Source: Mesodorylaimus sp. YZB2_4 (lineage: Eukaryota; Nematoda; Enoplea; Dorylaimida; Dorylaimidae). Taken from it: a stretch of 64,000 nt of DNA. The notes under the pieces were generated by a model. That model made no database searches. It saw nothing but the letters and a program-made list of their open reading frames with translations, and was not told the origin of the DNA. Both the position numbers and the translations under genes were made by a program. The DNA is taken from contig JASANH010000232.1 of NCBI GenBank assembly GCA_030248295.1, positions 434,001 through 498,000 on the forward strand, in the 5' to 3' direction. Positions 26,371 through 48,595 of the stretch are shown piece by piece (position 1 is the stretch's first letter; every line of letters begins with the position of its first letter).

Positions 26371-26949
26371 AAGAATGTACTTAGGACTCTTTATTTTGAT
26401 CTCCCATTCAGAATTGGTATTTGAGATTACCTAGCTGGAATTTCTTGACGTATTCAAAAATTTTAAAGTCAATTCGAGTACACCAAGCAAAAATCCACAT
26501 AGAGCGTTAGCGTCCAGGTCCAGCATTGGTCTGAAACCACACCCCGCCAACCCAAGCCCAGACCTTCGAGGGCCACATTCAGCTCAAACCCAGGCCCGCG
26601 TGATTTTTAAAATTGAACCCAAACCTACCCCAACTTTGTCACCACACACAGTATCTTCAGGTTTAAAAATTCAAAGCCAAATTTCAAAAACCCGAACAGC
26701 AATTTTAATTTTTCCATTAAAATAAATCATTAAAAATATTTTCCATAATTTTGCACCAGGGCCCGGTTCCTGAATCGCGATTAACTTTAACTGGGCAGTT
26801 AAATCTAGCATCACTGGGCAGTCAACTTTAACTTGCGTTCCTGACTCGCAGTTAAAGTTGACTGGAAAATTTAACTGGGCGACTTGACCGCCCAAATCTA
26901 ACCTACCTTGAGAGGTAGATTAACTAGCCGGTTATCCCATCTTTTGCAC

Positions 26950-28925
26950 ACTCGGAAGTAAACGGCACCTCGTATCGTGTGCGCGACACGGCTAACAAAA
27001 TTTTTTATACAGCCACGGCTAACAAGAATACAACTACGCCACATGGAGAATTGTTAGAAAACTTGTCTGAACTTATGTTGCGGCAGGGTACGAAATATTT
27101 CGAGAATGCGTGGGTGGATCTGTGATATTTTTTGCGTGGGTTCCTGTAAGATGTGCGGCAGTGCAAAGCACAAATTTCGTTGCTCTAGCTCAAAAGTACT
27201 TAAAAACTTTCGTGATGTGTTTGGTAGCACAATATACTGTAAGTTGATGAAATACTGTAGGTAGACATACCGTATATTTAGAAAGCTTCTACTGGCTGAT
27301 CTCAAGAATTGGGAGGGTTAGGGTGTTTTGGCTCATACTAGCAAATGTGGTGTGCTACATTATTCATGACAAAAGGTGCATCTAAATCCGCAAATAATTC
27401 GTGACGCCAAATAACAGATTATCGTTGATTCAATATCAACACTTTCAAGATCAGATTATAAGTTGAAAAATTTATCTTTTATCATGGCTATTTGGCCTGG
27501 AGTGGGACGTGCGCGGAAATTAGTTGTAGCACGACGATGCGGATGAGGGCGAGTGAGACGTGGTTGTTTCTTCATCGTTTGATTTGATGGGCCACATTGT
27601 TGTGAATAACGATCGGTTGGCCGCAAAAGATCATTTTTGGCAGATAACACAACATATCGATGCCACGATCGCGCCTTTGATAATACCTCACTCAGACAAT
27701 CACCTCGTAGTGCTGATACCTGCTCAGAAAGCGATGAGAAAATGGCGGCCAACTCAGCTTGATTTGCTGCATCAGATCTCGTTTCTTTTCCAGCCATCAA
27801 ACACTGTAAAGCGCGAGCACCCAGATCGGTTCCCGTTCCGCAGTCGCCTTCTCCAATGGGCCCATGAGGTCCTCGATTCCTGACTGATTCTCCGAAACTG
27901 TTTTCTTCGCCTTGATTGTCATTTGGCAGAACATTGCGAAAATCCTTATCGATTCCCATTTCACTGTCGCTCTCTTCAATGACCCCATCCAGCCCTGTAT
28001 GCTCGACTGATTGGTCAAAGCTGTTCTCTTCGCATTCGTTTTCATTTGGCCGACTCATGTGAACCAAATGCATGTGCTTACACGCGACGTTGGCGAAGGC
28101 GGAGTCGTCGCACGTGCAATTGTACATATCTGGACAGACTTTGCAGTTGCTGTAGTTGTAAAAGTACTCGATAACAGCGGACTTTGTCGACCTTTTTCTC
28201 TGCTTTTTAAATTCGAAAGATCCACTATTCTGCACCTCCGTTTTCCAATTTTCAAACTCTTCCACACTTTTGAATTCAAAATAGTCGATGTCAGCCGCAA
28301 TACCATGAGCTTCGCATAAATGATAACATAAATCTGGCATAGCCTTGACCGTGACGGTGCAGCAACCGCACTGAATAGTAGCAGGAATAAATGATTGGCT
28401 TGTCACGTTTTCATCACTAATATCCGTATCCAATTCTGATCCATTCAAATCACCATTATTTGATGTAGCGGGCGGATTGCAAACTTTACGATGCCGATGT
28501 AATGACGGGTGGTGTGCAAAAACTTTTTGACAGTAGTCACATTGATGCACCTTGCTAAGGCCGTGAACTGATTTTCGATGCAAACCAAGCGAAATTTTGT
28601 TGGGGAGAATCTTATCGCAATAGTCGCATTTCCAAGCCATCGTATTGATACAATAACTCGTTCCCAAACTTACAGCTTACAAGGCACAATCAACATTGTG
28701 CAACAAAACGGGTCTTTGTACCAACTTTCCCGCCTCAATACAATTTGAGCGCCAATGCAGCCAGTGCGTCAGTTGCGGCTGGGGTGACCAGTTTTGCTGA
28801 CCTCGATAGCCCACATGCTATGCTTTCTCCCATGATTTTCGAAGGTAATTTGTTAGCCGTGGCTGCATAAAAAATTTTGTTAGCCGTGTCGCGCACACGA
28901 TACGAGGTGCCGTTTACTTCCGAGT
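26950..28925. mobile_element. Mutator-like element (MULE) with 76-bp TIRs and 9-bp target duplication
   Basis: TIRs at 26950-27025 and 28850-28925 match at 75 of 76 positions and start ACTCGGAAGTAAACGGCACC. They are flanked by a perfect direct repeat CTTTTGCAC at 26941-26949 and 28926-28934. A 9-base duplication is characteristic of MULEs. Each TIR contains CACGGCTAACAA twice. The only sizeable gene inside is the zinc-finger/SWIM frame at 27456-28640. Confidence 0.92.
27456..28640 (-). CDS. MULE-encoded C2H2/SWIM zinc-finger protein lacking a transposase core
   Basis: An intact 394-residue frame from ATG at 28640, within the MULE. The N terminus has a C2H2 finger (C5, C8, H21, H26), a C2HC finger (C34, C37, H50, C54) and a third CxxC...H...H finger (C91, C94, H107, H112). 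A segment like the start of MULE FAR1/FLYWCH-type DNA-binding regions follows (FKSVEEFENWKTE), and then a SWIM finger, CxCx9CxH (C175, C177, C187, H189). In full MULE transposases several hundred residues with the DDE catalytic core separate these two parts; here there are fewer than 40. The C-terminal half is acidic, then basic (RPHPHRR). The upstream in-frame TTG codons are less likely starts. It probably binds DNA but cannot transpose. Confidence 0.8.
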   Translation of the reverse strand: MAWKCDYCDKILPNKISLGLHRKSVHGLSKVHQCDYCQKVFAHHPSLHRHRKVCNPPATSNNGDLNGSELDTDISDENVTSQSFIPATIQCGCCTVTVKAMPDLCYHLCEAHGIAADIDYFEFKSVEEFENWKTEVQNSGSFEFKKQRKRSTKSAVIEYFYNYSNCKVCPDMYNCTCDDSAFANVACKHMHLVHMSRPNENECEENSFDQSVEHTGLDGVIEESDSEMGIDKDFRNVLPNDNQGEENSFGESVRNRGPHGPIGEGDCGTGTDLGARALQCLMAGKETRSDAANQAELAAIFSSLSEQVSALRGDCLSEVLSKARSWHRYVVLSAKNDLLRPTDRYSQQCGPSNQTMKKQPRLTRPHPHRRATTNFRARPTPGQIAMIKDKFFNL

Positions 28926-29172
28926 CTTTTGCACTGCGGCGCAGCTTTTAATGTAAAAACCATCATGACTTTGCTTCCGCACATGCTGATCGTCCCTTAT
29001 TTGGAATTAGGATAACTCGACCCTTACAGAAGCCCTGTCTGTAAAGTGATTGGGGACATTTTAATGGCAGTGTCGAAATAGAGGGTTAGCCAAGTGGTTC
29101 ATGCTGTTTCATTAGCTATATGTCGTAAGCTGAATAAGTTTGTCAAGTTGTCAAAAGAAAAAAAGGCAAATT

Positions 29173-29370
29173 ACAAAAGGATTCTTCGATATTCGGAGTG
29201 TTCTTTGCGTTATTGGCGCCATAGATTGCTGGCATAAAGATTTTGGCATCAGGATACATCATAGTCATGGGCAGGGTGATCAAAGACACATGTACTTTAA
29301 TCGCAAGCAACCACCCAATCAATGTTTGATTGGGGTATCAGCGATCATGAGGGCACTCGAGGCGGTTTGA
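29173..29370 (+). pseudogene. Harbinger-type DDE transposase remnant
   Basis: The frame contains CVIGAIDCWH followed by MYFNRKQPPNQCLIG. This matches in order the first catalytic Asp region (GxIDGTHI) and the Y(F/I)NRKxxxSINVQ block of DDE_Tnp_4/Harbinger transposases. Other catalytic residues are absent and the frame stops at 29370. Confidence 0.65.
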
Positions 29371-29974
29371 TAGCGCTCTAATGTTAATTTCCGTCATCCA
29401 TAATTTTAAGATTAGTATGAGTCACTTTTTTTTGACTTTTTTTCACAGTCAAAATAAGCAGATTTCAAACAGATTGCCTCCTGATACAATTCTCAAAACA
29501 AATTGAAACTGAGGCAGTCTTATAGTACAGAAATATGAGTTGGCTAGGCACTTGACTGCCCAATTAGTGATTTAGCGGGCCAGTTAGTTAACCGCCTGGT
29601 TGACCAGATTTCAGGAACGCCAGTTAAATCTGCCTTAACTGCCCAGTTTGTGAACTGCCCGGTTAAGGCACTCAACCAGCCAGCTAATCTTGACTGCCCG
29701 GTTAAAATTAATCGCAATTCAGGAACCGGGCCCAGGAGGCGTGATTTGATGGAATTTTAAAAAAGTTGGCTTTATCTGGGTTTGGCTTTACGACCCAGCC
29801 CAGGCCTGCGACTTTACTAGTCCACCCAACCAAAACCCATCCCCATGGCCATGACACCCAATACAACCCAAAAACCCAGTGGGTTTGGGACGAATTGCAG
29901 GACCTGGGTTGGCCTTGCTATCAGCAGCTTGCAGTCTGTACAGGTGGCAGTATGACCTTGGAATATCTAGTGCA

Positions 29975-30165
29975 TAAACGACGTCGTATTTGGCCCCACC
30001 CCTTTCTCCTGTCCTACAAGATCGTTTTTTAAGCTACCCTCCTCCCCCCCCCCCCACCAGCGTACGACGTGGCTTTTGTACGGGCCCTTGGGGGAATCGA
30101 ACCTGCGCTTACCATATAATCTTGAGTTGCATACGTAATCAGCCAGCCCATACCCAGTGACGACC
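29975..30165. repeat. C-rich element joined to a tRNA-like SINE piece
   Basis: ACGACGTCGTATTTGG and a long C run (30045-30056) are followed by CGTACGACGTGG. On the minus strand, 30160-30086 then carries the B-box-like GGTTCGATTCCCCC with a tRNA-like arm. Confidence 0.5.
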
Positions 30166-43525: not shown

Positions 43526-44514
43526 AAGATCGGGTCAAACGGGTCAAAAATACAGAAATTTTGCAAGTTACTACTATTAGCAGCTACAGAAACCTTTTCG
43601 TAGTTTTTCGACTCCAGGATTTGCAGTATATGATTCATGCATGCATGCACAAAGTCTTTCATTCCACGTTCTCATTCTGCGTAACTTCCAAGAATGTGAG
43701 ACGAATTGTAAGCTGTGAGAATGACAAATTTTTCTGCGTAATTTCTGCAAAGGGAGGTCCACATGTGAGAGTTCTCATAAACATTCTTGTCAAATCTGAT
43801 GAATAAGTGAAACTAGCCATACTCTAACATAAGAAAGAATTGATAACTTTTAGCAGGTCGCAGGGGTATCTATAATCACGTTTGATTCCTGAATATGACA
43901 TAACTTCCTGGGTATATGTGGCTGGAAGAGCAGTATAGTCTGTACCCAAAAACCAAATATGTACCAATAATAGCTTCCTTGACCACCATCCATGTTAGCA
44001 TTGCAAAACTGTTTGCTGAGTTCAAAAGTGATAGGTACCCTCACATCCCTCCATCAGTAGTCGAGGTTCTGACAGGAGCCAGTGTCCAGCACAATATGAC
44101 TTTGTGAGCAATATCTTTCGTGAAGACTAGGTGCAACTCCAGCGTGGGGTTAATAAATATTTAGGTATTTCTTTGTTTAACCAAGGATAAGCTGTCTCAG
44201 ACTCCGAAAGTTATGGCAGCTGTCTCTATTATTCACGCCTATCATTCGGACTGGTTGAATTTTGTCTCCAGTGGACAGACCCGCGTCGCTTTTAGATCTA
44301 CGGTTTTTAAACAATTATTTGACCACTATTGTGGGAAATATGAAGGAACGTTACTGCATTTACTAAGGATAACCAGGGAATAACAAAAGATGAAGATTCG
44401 CGTGCGTTAGATGTCTCCATCTCATATTTTCTCAGAGTCACCTTCACACCAACGCCACCACGTTCTGATGATTTGTGAATGGTTTTTATCGCGCGGAACT
44501 TCAACTACTTGCAA

Positions 44515-44565
44515 CGAATTCGGGTCAGAGACTTTCGGGTCGGGTCGGGGTCGGGTTGAACCCGA
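44515..44565. repeat. GGGTC pentamer array
   Basis: AGACTTTCGGGTCGGGTCGG resembles the flank and unit at 43450. It lies immediately beside another SINE piece, as the 43434 array does. Confidence 0.7.
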
Positions 44566-44574
44566 CATCCGGTG

Positions 44575-44690
44575 TCTACTGTCGGTGTTCGACAGCCGAG
44601 ACTGTCTACTCATTTGGCGTCTCTTCTCTCGGAGCACCTCGGCGGTACCAGATGAGTCACCCACGGCTGATATTGAGGATAAGGTTAGCA
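44575..44690 (-). repeat. SINE fragment abutting a truncated channel exon
   Basis: The reverse complement carries GGTACCGCCGAGGTGCTC and GGCTGTCGAACACCGACAG, as in the SINE at 10478-10560. It joins directly to the DEG/ENaC pseudogene at 44690. Confidence 0.6.
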
Positions 44691-44859
44691 GAGCTGTCTT
44701 GAAAATGTGACTGATCCAAATAATTTTTTCACCGAAAGCTTCTTTCCAACCAGCCACGCTTGCTTTTTCAACCAGGTCATCATAAACCTCCTTCAATAAT
44801 TTTGGTTCTGATTTTTCTTCAATCTTCTCTGAGCTAAAGGCAGTACTTGTGCTGGCCAT
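44690..44859 (-). pseudogene. Truncated duplicate of DEG/ENaC exon 1
   Basis: Starts MASTSTAFSSEKIEEKSEPK and matches residues 1 to about 58 of the gene at 45555-47663, up to ALLTLS in TM1, where homology ends in SINE sequence. Upstream flanking DNA to about 45420 also matches the flank of the intact gene (to about 48240), so the duplication included the promoter. No downstream exons are present. Confidence 0.85.
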
Positions 44860-45554
44860 GGCCTATGATATATATTGTTTGAAGAGATTTTGACAACCTT
44901 TGTTCTCTGTACAATATATTGATTTTGGCGAGGAAATTTGGAGAGCAGGGAGCGCTGGATTGCACATTGAGTCCCAGAAACCGCTAAGCTTGGCTCACCT
45001 GGCCAGATATACAGTAATAGAATAGGTTTTACTATGTCGAAAAACCTTGGTGACTACCTGAACCTGTTCTGTGCGTTCCTAATGGTCTGTTAGCGATAGG
45101 CATCTTGCACTGGACCCAACGGTCCCTTGTCCCCGTACCCAACACAAGGCACAGCTGCACCCGCGGGCCACATTCCCGACTCGTTGCTATGGGTTATTTC
45201 GAAGATGTGAGATATCGAACAAAGCTTGATGGCTTCTCCGAAGTCCGAATAGATAGCGAATGACTTGGACTGGCAAGGGAAAACCAGTGAGTCTATCTCA
45301 CCGTCACTCATGACTCGTTTGAGCATACTTTAGTTCGCCTTCCCTTCTGACAGTTCTTCGTTCCCTTGGCTTTATCCATGTTTCGTATTCGTTTTGGCGG
45401 ATTTGATCGCCCACAATAAGCTATAGCTGCCTCTCCTGTCTGCTCACCTTGGGCGTGAAATCTGGAGTTCCAGTTGAGTATTGCGAGCATTTCCACAAGC
45501 ATTTAGCCGTCATAATGCTTAATTCCATGCACAATCACAACAAATTTCACATTA

Positions 45555-47663
45555 TTATCTTCGCGGGCTCACTCTTATCTTAGACCATCTCAAATAGTAC
45601 AAATAACGTGGCAAATAGAATAGAATATGAAAGAAACTGACAAACGAGATGCCCCAATACAAACCAAATAAATTCCCTAAATCGCACAGAATCAAATACC
45701 ATGAAACTTGTTGCACTTCATCGAACTGGCGATAATCCAGATCAGAATAGTACACTCGTATTTTACTGTACATTGTGTTGGGTCTTCTTCCTTCTTTCTC
45801 CAAATAGTAGAAGCTAGCCGAGCTGCTGTATGTCCATCGAACACAATGCGTTCGACGTTTGGCACGAGCCGCGTCCATATTAACTCTCCAGTTGCGTATC
45901 ATATTTATGTACATCTGATTCTTGCTGGACCCTGGGGTCCCATTATAGTGTTCTATATCTAAAGCGAAAGAATTTGATATAAGTAACGCGGCATAGGGTA
46001 AGCATAAGACGCTATCATTTGGCATATAATCAATGATTGCTACATGGCAATCAGACTGAAACATGAAAAAATTATTCGCTGCCTCATAAAGGATAAAATA
46101 TCCTTGCGGATCATGATAAGTGGCCAGCGAAGACTTCAAATTATTTGGACTTGCGCAGTTGACAGCTAATATTTGTTTGCTGGCCTGTATTTTAACATAA
46201 GTTTCGGCTCCATCGGGCGCCGTTATGGGCGACAAAAATATACTATAAGGGGCAGCGTCCACGAAAACTTTGAATCCGTTGTCAGTGTCATCATCAAGGA
46301 TTGGGAAGTCGTCCAGCGACATGTTAGCTTCAATTGTAAGCCCACCAGAAGGACCTGGAATTGTTTGTTTTATTGTGCGATTTGATGGAATCGCGTTGTT
46401 ACTGTCGAAGTTCAACTAAAATCCAAAAAATTGTAGCTGTATTAAAAATTTTAAGGAAATTCATACTAGTGACTTGGAATAAAATGATTGAAAATGTTGA
46501 GGGATGCCTGATAACAAGATTACAACCAGGGTCGAGCGTAACACAGTACCGACCGTTTCTTACCGTTTTACTGGGGAACGGTACTTCATGGAAATGGGGA
46601 TGATAGGGGTGGTAAGGGCCGTATCAGATCTCAGGTACGTGTAGCCCGAAACCCGATAGAGTTCACAGCCCAGCCGCCATCCTCCGAGGCTGTGGGTGTG
46701 TGGTCCAGGATCCACTCGTGTAGGGTGCCCCGAGTAGCGACCCACAGAAGGATGCAGATGTGCGTGCTGCCATGGGCATACCTTATTAGTCAGGCTTCGT
46801 GGGGGCATGTACCCTGTCGGTGTTGGACAGCCGAGACTGTCACCTCGTCGCTCCCGCCTCTCCAACTCACAGTCAGAGTTCCTCGACTGCCAGGTGAGTT
46901 TGTGGCTGAGCAAGGCCGGAGCCTTGCTTCTAAGGTTTGACTGCTGGCCGGCTATAGGAAAAAACGGGCAAAAGCCCAAAAAATTACAGCAAAAAAACTG
47001 GCTTACCATTATTACAAAGCAAATGCCGTCATCGTCGATTGAGCGAACAGCGTGCGAGCAGCAGTCGAATTCGACTCCACCAAATTCACACTTCTTAAAG
47101 ATATTTCCGCACGGCGAGAAAGCTTCTTTGATAAATGAGGAAAAATTAAGCAATTGTGGATTCTCGCGTATAATCATGCGGAAATAAATATAAAAAACCT
47201 CGTCCAATCGTGGACGATTTATTGGCGACAGATATAAGGTTAGCCAGTGGTATAATTCATCTTCCGTTTTGCCCGTATTTTTCTCATAAGCTCTTATTAT
47301 TTTGGGCGAAATTTGGACATGCTCACGAACATAAGTTTCATTAAAAAACACTTGGGCGCAAACAGTGACATTCGTGAATGGTAACTCTCTTAGATTGGTA
47401 AAATCAGTGATTTCATCTTTGTAACTTCTTTTATGGCTCCAGGTTTGTAAGCTTTTGTAAACATAAAAGAAACAGAAACAGGATAAGGTTAACAGAGCTG
47501 TCTTAAAAATGTGACTGATCCAAATAGTTTTTTCACCGAAAGCTTCTTTCCAACCAGCCACACTCACTTTTTCAACCAAGTCATCATAAACCTCCTTCAG
47601 TAATTGCGAATCAGATTTTTCTTTAATTTTCTCTAAGCTAAAGGCAGTTCTTGTGCTGGCCAT
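45555..47663 (-). CDS. DEG/ENaC-family cation channel subunit
   Basis: Two exons, 47663-47007 and 46415-45555 (GT-AG, phase 0), give 505 aa. The protein has a cytosolic N terminus, TM1 (about residues 49-72, WISHIFKTALLTLSCFCFFY), a large extracellular loop with scattered Cys (SPCGNIFKKC, FDCC, SDCHVA), the conserved GPSGGLTIEAN block, and TM2 carrying GLYWGIS. GIS is the G-x-S selectivity filter. The usual N-terminal His-Gly gating motif appears as Ala-Gly (SVAGW). The loop is short for the family and lacks several canonical Cys, so either a divergent subunit or a missed exon is possible. The 591-base intron contains a SINE 3' end. A partial duplicate lies downstream at 44690. Confidence 0.82.
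46795..46985 (+). repeat. SINE copy in the DEG/ENaC intron
   Basis: Contains CCTGTCGGTGTTGGACAGCC and ends GGTTTGACTGCTGGCCGGCT, then the hairpin GGGC-AAAA-GCCC at 46966-46977 and an A run. Confidence 0.7.
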
Positions 47664-48595
47664 AGCTTAGGATATAATTTTTTGATTTTGTAAAGACAGT
47701 TTTATAACGTTTTATGATAACCGTATTGATTTTTGTAAAGAATCGTGAGAGGAGGGAAAGTCTGGGTCGTTGAGGAGTTACCTCAAGGCTAACGGTAGGT
47801 TTGGTTTAAGCGTACAGATATACCATCACAGGTTTTACCAGGTCATAAAAATCCTTGGTAAGTAAAATTGTTCTCTATGTAGATGTTCGTACCGCTCTAG
47901 AGTCACGCCGAGCTCTGTTCCTAACGGTTTCTTGTCCCAGACCCAGCATTCGGGCACATCTGAACTCTCCAGAGTCACACTCCTAACTTGTTGCTATGGA
48001 ATATTTCGAAGGACATCATAATGGACTTTCGTGAAATTCTACATACGTAGGCTATAAGGAATAGGGGCTGGTAGTTAAGAGAAAATGTAGTCTTGCGAAC
48101 GAATCGTAATATATATTAATGTATCATAAAATGCTCGAAGTCCCCCCCCCCCGCAGATTAGTTTACCTCAAAGAGCTCTTCTGCCTCGGGATTTGCCTGT
48201 CCCCAGTTCTTATCTCCTTGGCTTCATCAAGTGCTCGTGGAGGGTCCGATCAACCATAATACGGCCTCATAAGCTAAGAGATTTTAAAAACTCAACGGCC
48301 TCCAATGTGTGATAACAGACTTTTGTCTTTTGAGAGCCTAGTTACCCTTACTACACATAGTCGCTGTGATGAAAAAGGTTTGCTTATCAAAGGAGCTGAT
48401 CGCGTCGCGAGACGCCGATTTTCTTTGATCTTCGTGTTGGGATTCTCGATTTTTATTTGAAAAGCAACTGACACGCAAAGAGAGTTATCTGGTGGACAAA
48501 CACGAGACTGACAATGAGAGCAAGTGTCAAGTAATAGTGTTTTCAGAACTTACAGTGCCTAACCAGAACTCTGTTCCGTCTTCATTACAAAAACC

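Follow-up and report, generated by a model that had tools for sequence, protein, structure and literature searches.

The window analysed here is a 64,000-nucleotide stretch of the genome of the nematode Mesodorylaimus sp. YZB2_4 (contig JASANH010000232.1, positions 434,001 to 498,000), and the genome searches were made in the genome from which it comes (145 Mb in 1067 contigs). Between positions 26757 and 29735 it holds a nest that almost certainly has three layers, with a Mutator-type element (MULE) lying within a Harbinger-type element that in turn lies within an older dispersed repeat, the repeat having been laid down first and the MULE last. The initial annotation had placed the nest correctly, although the span it gave includes the two CAG duplications, and the outer element proper occupies 26760-29732. 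As both transposons are of known kinds, the nest is an ordinary one, correctly read, that adds new members to those kinds. Its features are as follows, in window coordinates (TIR, terminal inverted repeat):

26380..26756, no strand: left flank, belonging to an old dispersed repeat; the joined flanks match across the junction
26757..26759, plus: CAG, left copy of the outer target duplication, read in the sequence and in the alignment of outer copies
26760..29732, plus: outer element, internally deleted, non-autonomous, putatively of NuwaI type; 988 bp without the insert; 25 distinct places
26760..26809, plus: outer left TIR; first 16 bases exact, 85% complementarity across 54 nt, 4 of them flanking bases
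26902..26949, plus: short transposase N-terminal remnant; tblastn, 16 aa, 87.5% to an L089 frame, E 2.3e-5
26941..26949, plus: CTTTTGCAC, left copy of the inner target duplication, read in the sequence
26950..28925, minus: inner element, non-autonomous MULE, 1976 bp; nine full-length copies
26950..27025, plus: inner left TIR, 76 bp; inverted-repeat analysis, 99% complementary (75/76)
27456..28640, minus: 394-aa open frame from an ATG, with a C2H2 N-terminus and a SWIM-like C-terminus, core absent; from frames, Pfam and genome matches
28850..28925, minus: inner right TIR, 76 bp; inverted-repeat analysis
28908..29012, plus: transposase N-terminal remnant, the aligned part running a few codons into the MULE end; 35 aa at 51% by tblastn, E 1.6e-7
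28926..28934, plus: CTTTTGCAC, right copy of the inner target duplication, read in the sequence
29176..29310, plus: DDE-domain remnant surrounding the first catalytic Asp (CVIGAID); 45 aa at 47% by tblastn, E 2.8e-6
29393..29464, minus: remnant of the N-terminus of a Myb/SANT frame; tblastn, 24 aa, 67%, E 3.8e-6
29683..29732, minus: outer right TIR; inverted-repeat analysis
29733..29735, plus: CAG, right copy of the outer target duplication, read in the sequence and in the alignment of outer copies
29736..30020, no strand: right flank, the same dispersed repeat continued; joined-flank matches

The inner element has the TIRs expected of a MULE, 76 bp long and matching at 75 of 76 positions as first described, and the 9-bp target duplication, reported as perfect, is indeed exact and falls in the 8-11 bp range of MULEs. 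Genome searches recovered nine full-length copies, the window copy included, which share the same ends except that one lacks the first 2 bases. Clean 9-bp duplications, different in sequence each time, flank eight of the nine; in the remaining copy (L012) the duplication is unclean, with GTAGCTTGC and TAC on one side versus GTAGCTAGC on the other. The L011 element is altered in its first bases, next to the duplication, and a shorter copy on contig C600 has a clean 9-bp duplication of its own (CTTCGTTTA). The eight other full-length copies differ from that in the window by 1, 5, 7, 8, 9, 13, 14 and 18 changes in 1974-1976 bases (0.05-0.91%). The low TIR identity counts of L011 (25/76) and L016 (60/76) are indel artefacts and were not used. 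Given this low divergence, the clean and differing duplications, and flanks free of the outer element, the inner family is a MULE family that bears the marks of recent movement. A recent move had been proposed from the near-identity of the TIRs; the move stands, but a better basis for it is the single difference in 1976 bases between the window copy and its nearest relative, L010.

The inner element's 394-aa frame has C2H2 zinc fingers that match Pfam under the curated cut-off and, near its middle, a CxC...CxH motif, recognised by eye and given no call by Pfam, which we take to be a SWIM-like finger. Pfam did not find PF10551 in the window copy. Searched against the genome, the frame splits into two parts that match separately at other loci, and at five of these (on contigs C12, C107, C916, C577 and C171) the N-terminal match comes first, then PF10551 and last the C-terminal match, all on a single strand. 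The frame thus represents both ends of a MULE transposase from which the catalytic core has been cut out, and with its core deleted the element was presumably moved by a transposase from elsewhere. It is from the frame ends, the TIRs and the duplication that we would place the element among the MULEs. A direct repeat of 118 bases, its two parts 70% alike, lies within the frame (window 27813-27930 and 27936-28053).

Diverged core-less relatives are found on C302 (L018/L031), with 90-94% DNA identity in three pieces, and on C20 (L025-L027), with 72-80% identity and the core lost at about the same place as in C302. When a query derived from C302 is aligned to C12, its two parts meet at about residue 97 and are 926 bases apart there, with PF10551 between them; on C20 they are about 95 bases apart. 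A further stretch, 457 bases long in C302, is missing from the window family at 28158/28159. Judging from their position, the C20 and C302 deletions are probably one event, and the core-less lineage seems older than the recent burst. The lineage thus seems to have been core-less since before relatives now about 20% diverged split, yet it kept moving.

The genome searches revealed no inner-family copy that combines matching TIRs with a catalytic core. In 28 genome TIR matches, no TIR pair encloses PF10551 among the matches listed, a survey that could miss a diverged or unassembled partner; on C3, C28 and C916 a PF10551 match lies 1-2 kb outside the TIR pair. Apart from C302 and C20, the closest other place with both ends of the frame is C13:77-79.5 kb, where PF10551 is absent among the matches listed. 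This place was considered as an autonomous partner and rejected, as no inner-family TIR is present in L091, the 751 bases next to its N-terminal end.

As far as they are described in PMC6446971, Spectre elements have 8-bp duplications and TIRs of 74-76 bp, Phantom elements have duplications of 8-10 bp, and invertebrate MULE groups include C2H2- or SWIM-type zinc fingers. The inner element resembles Spectre and Phantom, as characterised there, in its 9-bp duplication, its TIRs of tens of bases and the presence of PF10551 in its relatives, and is unlike them in lacking the catalytic core and in carrying C2H2 fingers at one end and a SWIM-like finger at the other (PMC6446971).

In each of the nine full-length copies 382 codons or more of the frame are open, and the diverged C20 and C302 relatives share the loss of the core, as would suit a core-less protein maintained by selection in the role of a DNA-binding repressor or helper, a role for which the Drosophila P element offers a conceptual parallel in its KP repressor. 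However, among the 24 codons that vary between the nine copies, 20 changes are non-synonymous or stop and 4 are synonymous, which gives no sign of purifying selection. Moreover, the frame stops 12 codons early in L016, continues to 426 aa in L013 and L015, and is broken in C20 and C302, and we consider retention by selection quite improbable.

The outer element begins with GGCCCGGTTCCTGAAT at 26760 and closes with ATTCAGGAACCGGGCC, which ends at 29732; the matching termini and CAG duplication reported at first are both present, the ends agreeing over 16 bases. To compare copies, we aligned the loci of the best 30 genome matches together with a long copy, L089, and the window, with minus-strand loci turned. 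Both ends are present in 28 rows, which represent 25 distinct places because one locus stands on both C795 and C565, while C74 (371 kb) and C24 each contribute a single place to two rows; rows in which an end is missing (L039, which is the window locus cut short, L040, L059 and L066) were left out. Over about 1 kb, 24 aligned rows differ from the window copy by 4.0-11.8%. The region of the MULE site is absent from L064, L067 and L068, and the remaining 21 rows, from 20 distinct places, run through the site uninterrupted and without the MULE. CTTTTGCAC is exact in 18 of these 20 places and differs by one base in L054 and two in L056. The order of insertion is directly evident from these outer places intact through the MULE site, and such empty sites, which the initial annotation proposed to look for, together with the genome copies of the inner element, bear out its reading of a MULE that entered a Harbinger-type element.

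Two peculiarities of individual outer places were noted in this alignment. The locus shared by C795 and C565 has flanks about 99% identical on the two contigs, which perhaps represent two haplotypes; an in-place inversion of the element between them was rejected, as the orientation is the same once minus-strand loci are turned. On C74, L062 (370.8-372.5 kb) consists of head-to-head pieces of the outer family that form an inverted unit of 1641 bp with CAG on both sides.

The assembly is fragmented into its 1067 contigs, and C795 and C565 show that one locus can appear in it twice, so the nest, and likewise the flanks described below that mix CAG and CTG, could be argued to be assembly artefacts at repeats. 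For the nest this is highly improbable: the window's outer copy is at least 4% different from each of the 24 other aligned rows, and the MULE is flanked by both outer halves with an exact 9-bp duplication. These two observations bear on the nest only, and the mixed flanks, unlike the nest, may yet be such an artefact. That the inner and outer parts, contiguous and with the ends of both intact, are one composite element moving together is next to inconceivable, since copies of each occur without the other: no outer-family match occurs within 1.5 kb on either side of the other eight full-length inner copies, and the MULE is absent from all 20 other distinct outer places in which its site is preserved.

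The nest of separately acquired elements extends outwards to a third layer. A 665-base query made by joining the left and right flanks of the outer element spanned the junction in 37 of the 45 matches listed, at 69-85% identity, and a shorter query of 203 bases agreed with this. The flanks are uninterrupted at many other places, so the surroundings of the outer element are a dispersed repeat older than the element itself. Three copies of this repeat (L092-L094) run straight through the junction; around the insertion point two of them read GCACAGGGAGG and one GCAAAGGGAGG, versus GCAC-CAG-GAGG in the window, and at the point itself they have ACAGGG (two) or AAAGGG (one), not CCAGG. Since none of the three has CAG exactly at the insertion point, they are consistent with the outer duplication but do not prove it at the site itself.

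The history of the locus almost certainly comprises three steps. The dispersed repeat, other copies of which are now 69-85% like that in the window, served as host. A non-autonomous, putatively NuwaI-type element of about 1 kb entered a CWG site in it and duplicated CAG, presumably with transposase supplied in trans, and the core-deleted MULE later entered the outer element and duplicated CTTTTGCAC, presumably with MULE transposase likewise supplied in trans. Mobilisation in trans of both elements, and the identity of their helpers, we infer, movement itself being unobserved. The nest is a clean textbook case in which three families are ordered in time at one locus. Of more use are two side results, both modest leads: the swapped flanks of the outer family and the old core-less MULE lineage.

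The coding capacity missing from the window's outer copy is present in the long member of the family:

L089, on C352: long outer copy, 2828 bp, CAG on each side, ends the same save at one base
L089:1028-1687: DDE_Tnp_4 frame, 220 aa, whole profile, E 1.7e-36
L089:2142-2960, minus (strand opposite the DDE frame): Myb_DNA-bind_5 (Myb/SANT) frame, 273 aa, E 7.8e-9

A second long copy is found on C211, with only one end within the stretch examined. With the MULE removed, the 988 bp of the window copy align to L089 in three blocks of 90, 70 and 83% identity. Its three short transposase remnants have 47-88% amino acid identity to L089 frames and a further piece matches the L089 Myb/SANT frame at 67%, in agreement with the Harbinger transposase remnant noticed earlier. 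Given the L089 frames and these surviving pieces, the window's outer element is a deletion derivative with scraps of transposase; it is an internally deleted copy and encodes no complete transposase.

NuwaI, a group of the PHIS superfamily (PIF/Harbinger, ISL2EU, Spy and others), is described in PMC4482050 as comprising families, mainly from animals, in which the duplication is 5'-CWG-3' and the elements have both a DDE and a Myb/SANT frame. The outer family has in common with NuwaI, so described, the 3-bp CWG duplication and a long member with DDE_Tnp_4 and a separate Myb/SANT frame, and the window copy is unlike it in being internally deleted and without a complete frame (PMC4482050). On these features the outer family would be assigned to NuwaI. 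The initial annotation had remarked that CAG departs from the TWA preference of PIF/Harbinger. This is true of PIF/Harbinger in the narrow sense, whose TWA duplication is replaced by CWG in the outer family, but within the superfamily there is no departure, since the duplication described for NuwaI is CWG and a CAG is therefore not odd.

Every one of the 25 distinct outer places that keep both ends has CWG on one side or both, a single extra base intervening in L045 and L065. Together with the nine full-length inner copies that share their boundaries, these flanks argue that the boundaries of the nest are not due to chance. The 3-bp duplication expected of other outer copies is present as matching CWG flanks at 17 of the 25 places (L045 and L065 included), but the flanks mismatch at the other eight. 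Five have CAG on one side versus CTG on the other (L042, L043, L046, L058 and L064), and three have some other single flank change (L056, L057 and L060). Were the changes random single mutations, a swap of A and T at the middle base would make up 1/9 of them; the swaps are 5 of 8 changes (p = 0.0007), or 4 of 7 without L042 (p = 0.004), in a test devised after the data were seen. This suggests that swapped flanks exceed the expectation from random mutation, and ectopic recombination or mis-assembly can be other sources of them. Whole-genome searches for the exact patterns of the two flank types found 21 and 18 ends, and the places with both ends of one flank type (C27:465 kb, C74:415 kb, C268 and C51) are all within the five already counted.

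A tentative explanation, which we regard as unlikely, is that on one side the target triplet is not made by gap filling but brought in from the donor site, the element carrying its donor CWG overhang along. Such an overhang would pair with any CWG target save at the middle base, and an A/T mismatch there, settled either way, would leave CAG/CTG flanks in a sizeable share of copies. If true, this would explain the swaps, which number five of 25 places against three otherwise changed. With a fifth of the places examined swapped, the outer family is a ready test set on how 3-bp duplications are made. According to PMC4561436, mPing is a rice Tourist-type MITE with a TTA/TAA duplication, for which constructed non-matching duplications were tested in yeast. 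As presented there, mPing is like the outer element in being non-autonomous, of the PIF/Harbinger kind and with a 3-bp duplication whose middle base is free; the outer element is unlike it in being a larger deletion derivative, and its mixed flanks are natural whereas those of mPing were constructed (PMC4561436). In the literature library searched, this was the one source listed on non-matching target duplications of Harbinger elements.

In one swapped place, L042 (C51:292.4-293.4 kb), the first 47 bases of the right flank are identical to window 29736-29782, after which the two sequences part. A CTG that agrees with the left CTG of L042 stands close to where this 47-base identity ends. This suggests repair that copied from another copy, or a template switch, rejoined at a short match.

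Elsewhere in the window, a tRNA-like sequence near 30090 was considered and rejected, as ARAGORN (bacterial code) finds no tRNA in the window. Two minus-strand frames, at 44422-44862 and 46560-47666, have near-identical starts (AMAST.TAFS.EKI.EKS...) and are perhaps duplicated genes.
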